Shown: piece by piece, positions 42,115-44,605 of the stretch | Numbering within the stretch: the stretch's first letter is position 1 | How the letters are laid out: every line of letters starts with the position of its first letter | NCBI GenBank assembly: GCA_021228405.1 | Contig: JAJQRF010000002.1 | Location: 310,001 to 374,000, forward strand | Reading direction: 5' to 3' | DNA: 64,000 nucleotides | DNA from: Pyrinomonadaceae bacterium | GTDB taxonomy: Bacteria; Acidobacteriota; Blastocatellia; Pyrinomonadales; Pyrinomonadaceae | Translations under genes and position numbers: made by a program | The notes under the pieces: generated by a model | Database searches by the model: none | What the model saw: the letters and a program-made list of their open reading frames with translations, nothing else | What the model was told of the DNA's origin: nothing

Positions 42115-42184
42115 GCAGTAAGCAGTAAGCGGTGAGCAGTTGCTTTTCTCTTTCTGCTTACCGCTTACTTATTACTGCTTGCTG
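42112..42184. repeat. Hairpin spacer of AAGCAGTAAGC units
   Basis: Left: three AGCAGTAAGC-type units beginning at the stop codon of the preceding gene. Right: complements CTGCTTACCGCTTAC, TTACTGCTTGCTG. It ends 8 bp before the rfbB start. Confidence 0.85.
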
Positions 42185-42191
42185 TAAATTT

Positions 42192-43211
42192 ATGACAAAA
42201 ATTTTTGTGACGGGCGGAGCGGGATTTATCGGCTCCGCATTTATTCACCAGGTTTTGGCGGAAACGGAGGACGTTGAGATCATCAACTTCGACGCGCTGA
42301 CGTATGCGGGAAATCCCGAAAATCTGAAATATTTGGACGCAACCCGGCATCGATTCGTGAAGGGTGACATTTGCGATAAAGAAGCGGTTTTGCAGTCTTT
42401 GCCCGATGATTGCGAGGCGATCTTTAACTTTGCCGCCGAATCGCACGTTGACCGCTCGATTTCGTCGGCGAGTGAATTCGTCACGACGAACGTGCTCGGA
42501 ACGCAGGTCTTACTCGATTGTGCGCGGGCAAAGAACGCGCGCCGTTTTGTCCAGATTTCGACCGACGAAGTAATGGGCAGTTTGCCCGAAAGCGACGATG
42601 CTTTTTTTACGGAAGATTCGCCGCTTCGACCGAATTCGCCTTATTCCGCGTCGAAGGCGGCGGCGGAACATTTCGTGCGGGCGGCGCGTGAAACGTTCGG
42701 CTTGGACACGGTGATTACGCGTTGCGGGAACAATTACGGGGCGCGTCAATTTCCCGAAAAACTGATTCCTTTAATGATCTCGAACGCGATGCACGACGAA
42801 CCGCTTCCGGTTTACGGCGACGGCAAAAATGTGCGCGACTGGATTTACGTCGAAGATCACGCGCGCGCCGTCTGGCTGGCGTATAAAAACGGCAAAGCGG
42901 GCGAGATTTACAACGTCGGCGCACGCAACGAACGCAAAAATATCGAAGTCGTCAAAGCGATTCTCGACGCGCTCAACAAACCGCACAGCCTGATAAAATA
43001 TGTCACCGACCGCCCCGGACACGACCGCCGTTACGCCATCGAAGCGTCGAAAACCGAGCGCGAATTAAACTGGAATCCGTCGGTTTCGTGGGAAGAAGGC
43101 TTGCAGAAAACGATTGACTGGTATCGGGAAAATCAGGATTGGGTAAACAATATCCGCAACGGCGCGTATCGTGAATATTACCAAAAAATGTATGGCGCAA
43201 GTTTGAAATGA
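42192..43211 (+). CDS. rfbB: dTDP-glucose 4,6-dehydratase
   Basis: A 339-residue extended SDR of the dTDP-rhamnose pathway. VTGGAGFIGSAFIHQ is the NAD motif. STDEVMGSLPE carries the catalytic Thr-Asp-Glu triad and YSASKAAAEHFVRA the Tyr/Lys pair. The start at MTKIFVTGG excludes 20 upstream codons that come from the hairpin spacer. With rmlD downstream it supports synthesis of dTDP-L-rhamnose or a related sugar for LPS; rmlA and rmlC are not here. Confidence 0.93.
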   Translation: MTKIFVTGGAGFIGSAFIHQVLAETEDVEIINFDALTYAGNPENLKYLDATRHRFVKGDICDKEAVLQSLPDDCEAIFNFAAESHVDRSISSASEFVTTNVLGTQVLLDCARAKNARRFVQISTDEVMGSLPESDDAFFTEDSPLRPNSPYSASKAAAEHFVRAARETFGLDTVITRCGNNYGARQFPEKLIPLMISNAMHDEPLPVYGDGKNVRDWIYVEDHARAVWLAYKNGKAGEIYNVGARNERKNIEVVKAILDALNKPHSLIKYVTDRPGHDRRYAIEASKTERELNWNPSVSWEEGLQKTIDWYRENQDWVNNIRNGAYREYYQKMYGASLK

Positions 43212-43272
43212 ATGAATAAAAATAAGAGTTTCGACAAAATATTTCGTCCGATAAATTGAAATGAATCGCCAA

Positions 43273-43333
43273 AATTTTGTAGGGGCGACGGCTCGTCGTT
43301 AAAAACCTTGTAGGGGCGACGGCTTGTCCTCGC
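43273..43333. repeat. Tandem copies of a TTGTAGGGGCGACGGCT element
   Basis: Copies at 43277-43293 and 43308-43324, with a 31-bp period; each is followed by C/TCGTC or TGTCCTCGCCC, giving weak inverted symmetry. Similar GTAGGGGCGA elements are common intergenic repeats in many bacterial phyla. Confidence 0.7.
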
Positions 43334-43381
43334 CCAATGAGCGAAGCGAAATTCCGTTAATTTCCAATTTCTATGGATTAA

Positions 43382-43579
43382 AACTCGATTTCCATTTCTT
43401 AAGATCGAGATTAAAGAATTAAACACTCGATTCGAGGAAAGCTAAACTTAGTTTTTACTTCCTGTAATCGAGTTTTAAGAAGTGTAAACTCGATTACAGG
43501 AACCTCTAATCGAGTTCAGCCATCCTTGAATCGAGTTTAGTTGTTTGTGAATCGAGTGTGAGAACGAGTGAATCGATTT
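43382..43579. repeat. Array of ten 9-bp boxes with an exact 21-bp pitch
   Basis: Boxes of consensus AATCGAGTT or its reverse complement AACTCGATT begin at 43382, 43403, 43424, 43445, 43466, 43487, 43508, 43529, 43550 and 43571. Copies 1, 5, 6, 7 and 8 match one of the two forms exactly; the others have one to a few mismatches. The 12-bp spacers are unrelated, except that boxes 5 and 6 extend to a 17-bp perfect inverted repeat (43459-43475 and 43486-43502). Two helical turns per unit puts all boxes on one face. Confidence 0.9.
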
Positions 43580-43598
43580 TTGGGCAATCGCACACGCG

Positions 43599-43714
43599 TT
43601 CAGAGTTCCTTCTTGAGAAAACTTTTTGTTGAGCGTCAGCCGCCTGAAGGCGGGACTCTGAACCTGAGAAGGCTTTTCGTTTAGCGTCAGCCGCCTGAAG
43701 GCGGGACTCTGAAC
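43599..43714. repeat. Dispersed palindromic element, copy 2 plus a partial tandem copy
   Basis: 43599-43663 begins TTCAGAGTTCCTTCTT and ends GGCGGGACTCTGAAC, matching the reverse complement of 25296-25361. The right part (AGCGTCAGCCGCCTGAAGG...) repeats at 43682-43714, a 51-bp period. It ends 18 bp before the rmlD start. Confidence 0.85.
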
Positions 43715-43732
43715 TTTAATTTATTGAATCGA

Positions 43733-44605
43733 ATGAAAATATTAATCACGGGCGCGAACGGAATGGTTGCGCGGGCAACAATCAAATATTGTGAATCGAT
43801 CGGCGATGAAGTCGTTGCCGTCACGCGTCAGGAAATGGACATTTCTATGCGTTGGGCGATTCGGGAAGTATTTGAGCGGGAAAAGTTTGATGCCGTTATA
43901 AATTGCGCGGCTTACACGGACGTTGACGGGGCGGAAACCAACGAAAAAGAGTGTTTTGAAGCTAATGCTTCCGGCGTGGAAAATCTTGCGCTTTTCGCCA
44001 AAAAATATAATTGCGGTTTTGTCACGATTTCGACCGATTTCGTTTTCGACGGTATATACAAAGGTTTTTACACACAACGCGACACGCCGAAGCCATTGGG
44101 ATTTTACGGCAATTGTAAGCTCCAGGGCGAATTTCTTGCGCGAAATGCTTATGCGCGTTCGATCATCGTGCGTTCGGGCTGGATTTACGGCGCGGGCGGC
44201 ACAAATTTTTTGAGCGTGATGGATAATTTATTAGCCGACGGAAAGAAAATAAAAGCGATTTACGATTCGTTCGGAACGCCGACTTTCGGAAACGACCTTG
44301 CCAAACGTCTGCGCGAGCTTGCCGAACTCGATCTGCCCGCGATCTATCACGTCACCAATTCGGGCGAAGGCACGAGTTATGCGGGTTTTGCCGGGAAAGT
44401 CTGCGAATTGCGCGGTTATGATCTGAATTTACTCGAACGCGCTTCCGCCGAGAGTCTGAAACGTCCCGCACCGCGCCCGCAAAGCTCGAAAATGGCTTGT
44501 CTGTTCAGCGAAAGATTCGGTCTGGAACCTTTGCCGCACTGGGAAGACGCGTTGAAAGAGTTTTTGAACGCGGATCAGGCAGATCAGGCAGATTGTCGCA
44601 GATAA
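43733..44605 (+). CDS. rmlD: dTDP-4-dehydrorhamnose reductase family protein
   Basis: A 290-residue SDR that reduces the 4-keto sugar in the last step of dTDP-L-rhamnose synthesis. The signatures are MKILITGANGMVA, INCAAYTDVDGAE, ISTDFVFDG and YGNCKLQGE, with the Tyr/Lys pair. Typical RmlD has YGxTKLxGE, so the Asn-Cys variant is minor. The ATG at 43733 is preferred to a TTG three codons upstream. Between rfbB and this gene lie 521 bp of repeats. Confidence 0.88.
   Translation: MKILITGANGMVARATIKYCESIGDEVVAVTRQEMDISMRWAIREVFEREKFDAVINCAAYTDVDGAETNEKECFEANASGVENLALFAKKYNCGFVTISTDFVFDGIYKGFYTQRDTPKPLGFYGNCKLQGEFLARNAYARSIIVRSGWIYGAGGTNFLSVMDNLLADGKKIKAIYDSFGTPTFGNDLAKRLRELAELDLPAIYHVTNSGEGTSYAGFAGKVCELRGYDLNLLERASAESLKRPAPRPQSSKMACLFSERFGLEPLPHWEDALKEFLNADQADQADCRR

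Follow-up and report, generated by a model that had tools for sequence, protein, structure and literature searches.

Minisatellites and other VNTRs are tandem repeats whose units turn over and whose families are copied. Iterons, parC/parS-type sites and multi-site operators present sites about two helical turns apart on one face of the DNA for cooperative binding of a small protein, and they occur at one locus or a few, often next to their own gene. Most REPs are 20-40 bp long and belong to sequence families tagged with GTAG or CGTC; in BIMEs they are separated by inter-REP segments. PMC3733652 describes REPs as extragenic elements that lie downstream of coding sequences, where the neighbouring genes are unidirectional or convergent, and PMC2817692 reports that BIMEs or REPs bind gyrase, IHF and Pol I.

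The arrays considered here, found in the genome of a Pyrinomonadaceae bacterium, are like REP/BIME elements in being extragenic, palindromic and tandem, with units in both orientations, and in lying in tandem or convergent gaps, with none of the 19 non-coding census arrays in a divergent one. They are unlike them in sharing a pitch of 21 bp and a weak AAnnSnnTT dyad, with family-specific sequence and abutting units; no common tag was seen by eye in the array consensuses, and complementary changes are not preserved, the consensus often being palindromic while its pairing does not exceed permutation. Compared with minisatellites and VNTRs, the arrays keep their pitch over diverged units, follow a common dyad plan and have single units flipped in register, and compared with iterons and partition sites they are numerous, at an estimated 127 loci or so. 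The original prediction for this locus knew of no described element of its kind; at the level of titles and abstracts, with few subscription papers covered, we too found no such arrays described in the literature, although REP/BIME elements are similar in several respects.

The array between two sugar-nucleotide-type genes

In the window, that is, the whole stretch of 64,000 nucleotides analysed, ten 9-bp boxes span positions 43382-43579 with starts at exactly 43382 + 21k bp and with both orientations present, which confirmed the arrangement as predicted. Compared with AATCGAGTT or its reverse complement, boxes 1 to 10 carry 0, 2, 1, 3, 0, 0, 0, 0, 1 and 1 mismatches, so that five boxes are exact, three have one mismatch, one has two and one has three, for a sum of 8 in 90 bases. 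Minus-strand boxes are box 1 (AACTCGATT, 43382-43390, exact), box 3 (CACTCGATT, 43424-43432, 1 mismatch) and box 6 (AACTCGATT, 43487-43495, exact). On the plus strand lie box 2 (GATCGAGAT, 43403-43411, 2 mismatches), the exact copies of AATCGAGTT in boxes 5 (43466-43474), 7 (43508-43516) and 8 (43529-43537), and boxes 9 (AATCGAGTG, 43550-43558) and 10 (AATCGATTT, 43571-43579) with 1 mismatch each. Box 4 (AACTTAGTT, 43445-43453), with 3 mismatches in either orientation, is a near-symmetric hybrid of both and fits AAYYNRRTT. This is the better formula for the boxes of the array, being satisfied by both orientations and by the hybrid at 43445, and it is exact in 6 of 10 boxes. Scored by units, the whole array extends over 43355-43585 (contig C7:353355-353585) and comprises 11 units, the first of them weak, with a base-centred dyad in each. 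Oppositely oriented units form an inverted repeat at 43425-43536 (arms 43425-43475 and 43486-43536, 76% complementary), and hence a long hairpin, a trait that is not common to all sister arrays.

When pitches from 10 to 59 were compared by the ten-box mismatch total, the runner-up was 30 at pitch 42, which is the double of the array's own pitch, and the best site elsewhere in the window reached 40 versus 8 at the array. Its period-scan score was 140.6, against a maximum of 22.2 in four dinucleotide shuffles. Genome-wide occurrence of boxes at random spacing had been named in advance as the sign of a chance array. Single boxes with at most one mismatch showed no excess in the window (32 found, 41 expected), nor did exact boxes in 854 kb, about 15% of the genome (24 against 22.2 expected, five of the 24 within the window array), and the only gaps below 200 bp between consecutive exact boxes in these 854 kb were 21 bp (three) and 84 bp (one). 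Since single boxes are not enriched, the phasing is the special feature. The 12-bp spacers had been called unrelated, which did not hold: with all units turned to one orientation, [T/A]CCT precedes the box in 5 of 11, and some spacers reappear in sister arrays of the same genome.

The upstream gene (42132-43211, plus strand), presumably rfbB-like, matches the NAD-dependent epimerase/dehydratase family of Pfam and has its 3′ end 170 bp before box 1; the named records nearest to its protein are Pyrinomonadaceae and Acidobacteria MAGs. Downstream, also on the plus strand, lies a gene of the RmlD substrate-binding family (43724-44605; Pfam), so that sugar-nucleotide-type genes flank the array on both sides. 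No ORF of at least 80 aa spans the whole array, and one minus-strand ORF covers boxes 1 and 2. The suggestion that the array is an operator for rmlD had to be given up, as the class recurs at about 22 loci per Mb in tandem or convergent gaps and no promoter-like site was found in the array region. Two other repeats are found nearby. Just 5′ of the array, at 43271-43328, a 27-bp repeat occurs twice (89%) and contains GTAGGGGCGACGGCTCGTC, its second copy having GTAGGGGCGACGGCTTGTC; and at 43614-43714 a 51-bp REP-like element, whose core is GCCTGAAGGCGGGACT, is present in two copies (92%). At up to 2 mismatches, this core has 24 matches in 854 kb of the window's genome, 0 in 400 kb of a genome from another genus of the family (G026) and 1 in 400 kb of genome G013. 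The REP-like element lies within 400 bp of 4 of 20 census arrays (p = 0.07), and a link between it and the arrays was rejected on this count.

A dispersed class of arrays at gene ends

Arrays of the same family were found by blastn on contigs C1 and C17 of the window's genome (5.72 Mb, 20 contigs), with 18-19 and 14-17 pitch-21 units, respectively, depending on the criterion used. Because pitch-21 arrays with other boxes were seen near these sister arrays, a sequence-blind scan was applied to 854 kb of the genome, taken from two contigs of over 1.1 Mb and including the window. For every period from 10 to 60, it looks for 6-mers that recur in direct orientation at whole multiples of the period, together with inverted pairs whose axes coincide modulo the period. 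There were 27 clusters with scores above 40, among them 18 of period 21 and 2 of period 20; above 60 there were 20 clusters, 18 of them at period 20-21, and no cluster in four shuffles exceeded 22.2. All but one of the 20 clusters at pitch 20-21 are non-coding, the exception (C4:254294) lying inside a long ORF, and the window array ranks 12th by score. The density of non-coding arrays, about 22 per Mb, extrapolates from 854 kb to about 127 per genome.

The same scan of 52 loci from other phyla (783 kb, one distant acidobacterium locus included) gave no cluster at period 20-22 above 25, and neither did 50 kb of E. coli K-12. Among 28 acidobacterial loci (410 kb) there was one cluster at period 22 (52.5) and none at 20-21 above 40, with three period-21 clusters at 25-40, two of which are apparently one contig in two assemblies. 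In a 400-kb sample of G026, where arrays are less dense than in the window's genome, all four clusters above 40 had period 21, and one or more arrays occur in G018. Samples of the same size from G013 and from G046, which is of another family, contained no period 20-22 cluster above 25, and above 40 their clusters vary in period (11, 12, 13, 15, 18, 37, 44, 49); 200 kb each of G009 and G021 gave no period 20-22 cluster above 40, with one of period 21 at 39.8 in G009. Since G013, G009 and G021 belong to the same family and have no pitch-21 cluster above 40 in the 200-400 kb covered of each, the element is dispensable.

Most of the clusters inspected at periods 14 and 10 are built of repeats of 7 bp, 10 bp or more that have inverted arms, and are of a different kind. 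Tandem 7-bp repeats such as (GGATTTT)n occupy C4:247851-248100, C4:263951-264200 and C7:130301-130550, with an inverted complement some 50-75 bp further on that gives long hairpins, and period-7 repeats are common in the window as well. An AT-rich repeat underlies the period-10 score of C4:15801, and C7:106401-106650 holds a 10-bp repeat, CACAGATAGACACAGAT, with inverted arms, which we take to be a type found in many phyla. In G013, whose sample has no pitch-21 arrays, C1:230077-230400 carries inverted arms of a 9-bp repeat (AGTCTAGCG and its variants), which may serve the same purpose in another way.

Array length ranges over about 7-18 units, and the boxes are diverse (GATAAAATgATTTTATC, CCCTAAATgATTTAGGG and GCAGAAA..TTTCTGC, for example). 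The arrays thus make up many sequence families, three of which have several members by blastn. One family has four arrays (C7:17.9k, C7:238.6k, C4:162.5k and C4:244.5k), with 91% identity between the arrays at C4:162.4k and C4:244.4k across 155 bp, 40 bp of flank included; some array families have spread between loci. The arrays at C4:244.5k, C7:17.9k and C7:238.6k have by eye a common end (GGGGA..TCCCC, an A-run and TGAG), which may mark a terminus that is recognised as the family spreads.

With the C17 array as query, blastn at E 0.001 returned no match in 59 relatives. In G026, two arrays were found by a model reading the sequence only, beside ORFs that differ by eye from those of the window, and a third run there has four boxes; the box in G026 is mostly AATC[AG]AGTT, at pitch 21. 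Over the best-aligned stretch (77% identity over 78 bp), G026 and the window array share the same pitch, and 33 of 36 box bases are kept compared with 27 of 41 spacer bases. Conserved spacers beside degraded boxes in a relative had been set out in advance as the mark of chance or of a simple satellite, and the comparison turned out the other way.

Placement was assessed with simple ORF and codon-usage gene calls made in this analysis. The 19 non-coding census arrays lie in 12 tandem and 7 convergent gaps, and in no divergent gap. Among 135 other intergenic gaps longer than 200 bp, 44 are divergent (p = 0.0019 against 0 of 19) and 16 are convergent (p = 0.010 against 7 of 19). The C19 array, which is outside the census, was called divergent, beside a short ORF. 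Within tandem gaps, the arrays have no clear tendency to lie nearer the 3′ end of the upstream gene (about 10 of 16 do). Avoidance of divergent gaps would be equally expected of a neutral repeat that is kept out of promoters.

Register, orientation and a common dyad plan

Over 348 units in 29 non-coding arrays, adjacent units differ at 38% of sites, and still the conserved columns lie next to one another (lag-1 correlation of 0.21, against -0.05 ± 0.04, reached in none of 400 permutations). The pitch is exact over these diverged units: 319 junctions are in register, with out-of-register units in the flanks of at most 4 of the 29 arrays and a clear register slip in one (C4:188122). As array extension follows the register, indel-broken arrays are visible only in this flank check. 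These junctions support the predicted pitch of two helical turns, which would put the boxes on one face, and a constraint that bears on the pitch and not on the spacers. An apparent irregularity in box spacing was discarded, because it seemed to be mostly an orientation offset in an off-centre scoring window. Differences between nearest units have a ts/tv ratio of 0.91, compared with 0.5 for random difference, and part of the unit divergence is therefore point mutation.

Twelve of the 29 arrays have three or more units in each orientation, and within them a unit's orientation does not depend on that of its neighbour (68 like-oriented neighbours, 67.6 expected), so that flips happen unit by unit, and block inversion of several units was rejected for the same reason. 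C4:397424 and the C1 array consist of simple direct repeats, with all units in one orientation and a dyad that is faint or absent, and three of the four arrays in the G026 sample are mostly direct (122-162 direct pairs versus 4-7 inverted).

Since 21 is odd, every dyad array has one base-centred and one step-centred axis, and all arrays can therefore be placed in one frame. For the test of architecture we used 16 arrays of unlike sequence, 11 of the 27 pitch-21 arrays having been excluded (8 as family duplicates, 3 as not palindromic). The A/T fraction at offsets 0 to 5 from the base-centred axis was 0.41, 0.64, 0.70, 0.91, 0.85 and 0.72, and about 0.5 beyond. A at -3 with T at +3 had a mean of 0.67 versus 0.32 ± 0.06 under random array shifts (0 of 5000 shifts); by array, the value was at least 0.77 in 11 of 16, 0.50 in one and at most 0.27 in four, so that AAnnSnnTT is present in most palindromic arrays. 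A palindrome cut-off alone picks 21 of 27 arrays (window excluded) with the same A/T profile, and in these 21 the preference for A-before-T over T-before-A, taken alone, has p = 0.049. The box AATCGAGTT of the window conforms to AAnnSnnTT. Beyond the arrays, the window's genome has no more than a mild excess of AA-N5-TT pairs at lags 21-23, and the G026 sample as a whole is at background (124 versus a median of 116). A typical unit is a quasi-palindromic box on the weak AAnnSnnTT plan, otherwise with its own family's sequence, and is 21 bp long, rarely 20. We regard this profile as the strongest sign of what may be one recognition rule behind arrays of different sequence.

Explanations for the arrays

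Taken together, the arrays are best explained, with a probability of roughly 0.45, as a dispersed class of gene-end DNA that is like REP/BIME elements in kind but distinct from them, and that probably docks a dimeric DNA-binding protein every two turns of the helix. We infer such docking from the pitch constraint and the common architecture. A wider formulation, which we put forward tentatively and with less confidence, would make this a new class of chromosomal element defined by geometry and not by sequence: some 100 or more gene-end arrays per genome, of many sequence families but all repeating a base-centred AAnnSnnTT dyad along one helix face in steps of 21 bp, which a single oligomerising DNA-binding protein specific to the lineage would read so as to insulate or terminate neighbouring transcription units. 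Cooperative binding of a small protein was part of the original prediction; the pitch and AAnnSnnTT do have the look of a DNA-level, protein-type signature, but a single partition or anchoring site does not agree with about 22 loci per Mb.

In the mechanism we propose, a dimeric DNA-binding or architectural protein would make contact in each box with the A/T pairs at positions ±3 and ±4. A unit would work either way round because its site is nearly symmetric, and substitutions would be tolerated and indels not, because cooperative dimers must share one helix face. Once bound, an array downstream of genes could act as a roadblock, an insulator or a topological sink, as proposed for BIME arrays; according to PMC8360656, positive supercoiling accumulates between convergent genes, and a topological role is therefore one option. 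The in-register flips could arise when the polymerase switches template between adjacent near-palindromic boxes, which would invert the intervening DNA with its length unchanged. In PMC8604942, template switching inverts spacers and homogenises arms, and spacer inversion occurs only with arms longer than 9 bp, as against boxes here that are 9 bp or so and imperfect. Template switching of this kind at quasipalindromes would account for the flips but for neither the 21-bp pitch nor the common architecture.

The chief competing explanation is a satellite generated by fixed-step mutation and tolerated at gene ends. Under this explanation, duplication in 21-bp multiples by slippage or recombination, with hairpins and template switching helping, would make and homogenise functionless arrays, which would survive only where they are harmless, downstream of genes. 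The copying of families between loci (C4:162.4k and C4:244.4k) and the patchy presence across genera speak for it, as do the arm homogenisation and spacer inversion just cited and the somewhat higher frequency of similar units at lags 1-3, with C4:105155 alternating by eye with period 42. Folding points the same way: it is slightly above that of shuffled unit order (mean z -0.71 ± 0.22, negative in 22 of 30 arrays, -2.7 in the window), which favours hairpins or local template switching. By itself, however, a satellite does not predict AAnnSnnTT across arrays of unlike sequence, contiguous conserved columns in units that are 38% different, or register slips so scarce beside point substitutions, and where the class is absent, in the 400 kb each of G013 and G046, the clusters above 40 are of mixed periods. 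We therefore consider a functionless satellite rather unlikely.

Less probable still is an element acting at the RNA level, in which the arrays would be transcribed at mRNA 3′ ends and their hairpins would end transcription or shield the messenger, as many REPs do. The slight advantage over shuffled unit order agrees with it, as does the location at gene ends, which in REPs is read as a sign of transcription in PMC3733652. Folding is also strong in 22 of 30 arrays (z of -3.5 or below against dinucleotide shuffles), the window array reaching -6.9, or -8.1 with its flank; but 8 of 30 (one of them the coding array) have z above -3.5, C4:397424 being at +1.6, and a z of -0.4 was obtained for the C1 array. 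A long hairpin, strong in the window and absent from these two arrays, was accordingly rejected as a defining trait. Covariation across either dyad gave pairing not above the column-permutation expectation (pooled z -1.7 and -2.6, a statistic that flips of asymmetric units also lower), and on the sense strand G-U mismatches (487) were as frequent as A-C ones (484). The array region of the window held 0 terminator-like sites against 0.8 expected. Hairpins would need no exact two-turn pitch, and such a pitch is rather what would be expected of a constraint on DNA. The missing covariation, the equality of G-U and A-C, the 8 of 30 arrays without strong folding and the exact pitch together favour a DNA-level element.

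Mobilisation of a REP/BIME family by a RAYT-type Y1 transposase is highly improbable. The arrays are extragenic, palindromic, of mixed orientation, located at gene ends and dispersed in families, and the window's genome has Y1_Tnp genes (9 matches); but the boxes belong to many families with no common one, the 21-bp units abut without inter-REP segments, and the REP-like element that is actually present (GCCTGAAGGCGGGACT) has a different sequence. Y1_Tnp is moreover found in five of five genomes tested, including G046 and G013 (13 matches in the latter), whose 400-kb samples have no arrays. Coding heptad repeats (7 codons equal 21 bp), or their decayed remains, can hardly be entertained: two sister arrays read partly as KLDxRxx, the C17 frame is open for 82-87 codons and the census cluster at C4:254294 is inside a long ORF, but four stops in the window match and 1-2 in each C1 match largely refute a coding reading, strands flip in register, pitch-20 arrays exist and the C17 frame has no Pfam match. 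Also rejected were a CRISPR array, in view of 9-bp boxes in abutting 21-bp units and of spacers recurring between arrays; a known RNA family, Rfam matches being sub-threshold (one to a CRISPR direct repeat, 23 bits against a cut-off of 38); and a plasmid or phage iteron or partition site, given 19 non-coding loci in 854 kb and the sugar-nucleotide-type genes around the window array.

If the reading as a protein-docking class at gene ends is true, this lineage marks many of its gene ends by helical phase and symmetry, and not by sequence. Such elements escape homology-based annotation, as the blastn search of 59 relatives illustrates, and a period-and-inversion scan finds the class; the same scan could show whether such arrays exist in other phyla. 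For the Acidobacteriota, the arrays would also make it possible to test how nucleoid architecture, transcription boundaries and DNA topology are linked.
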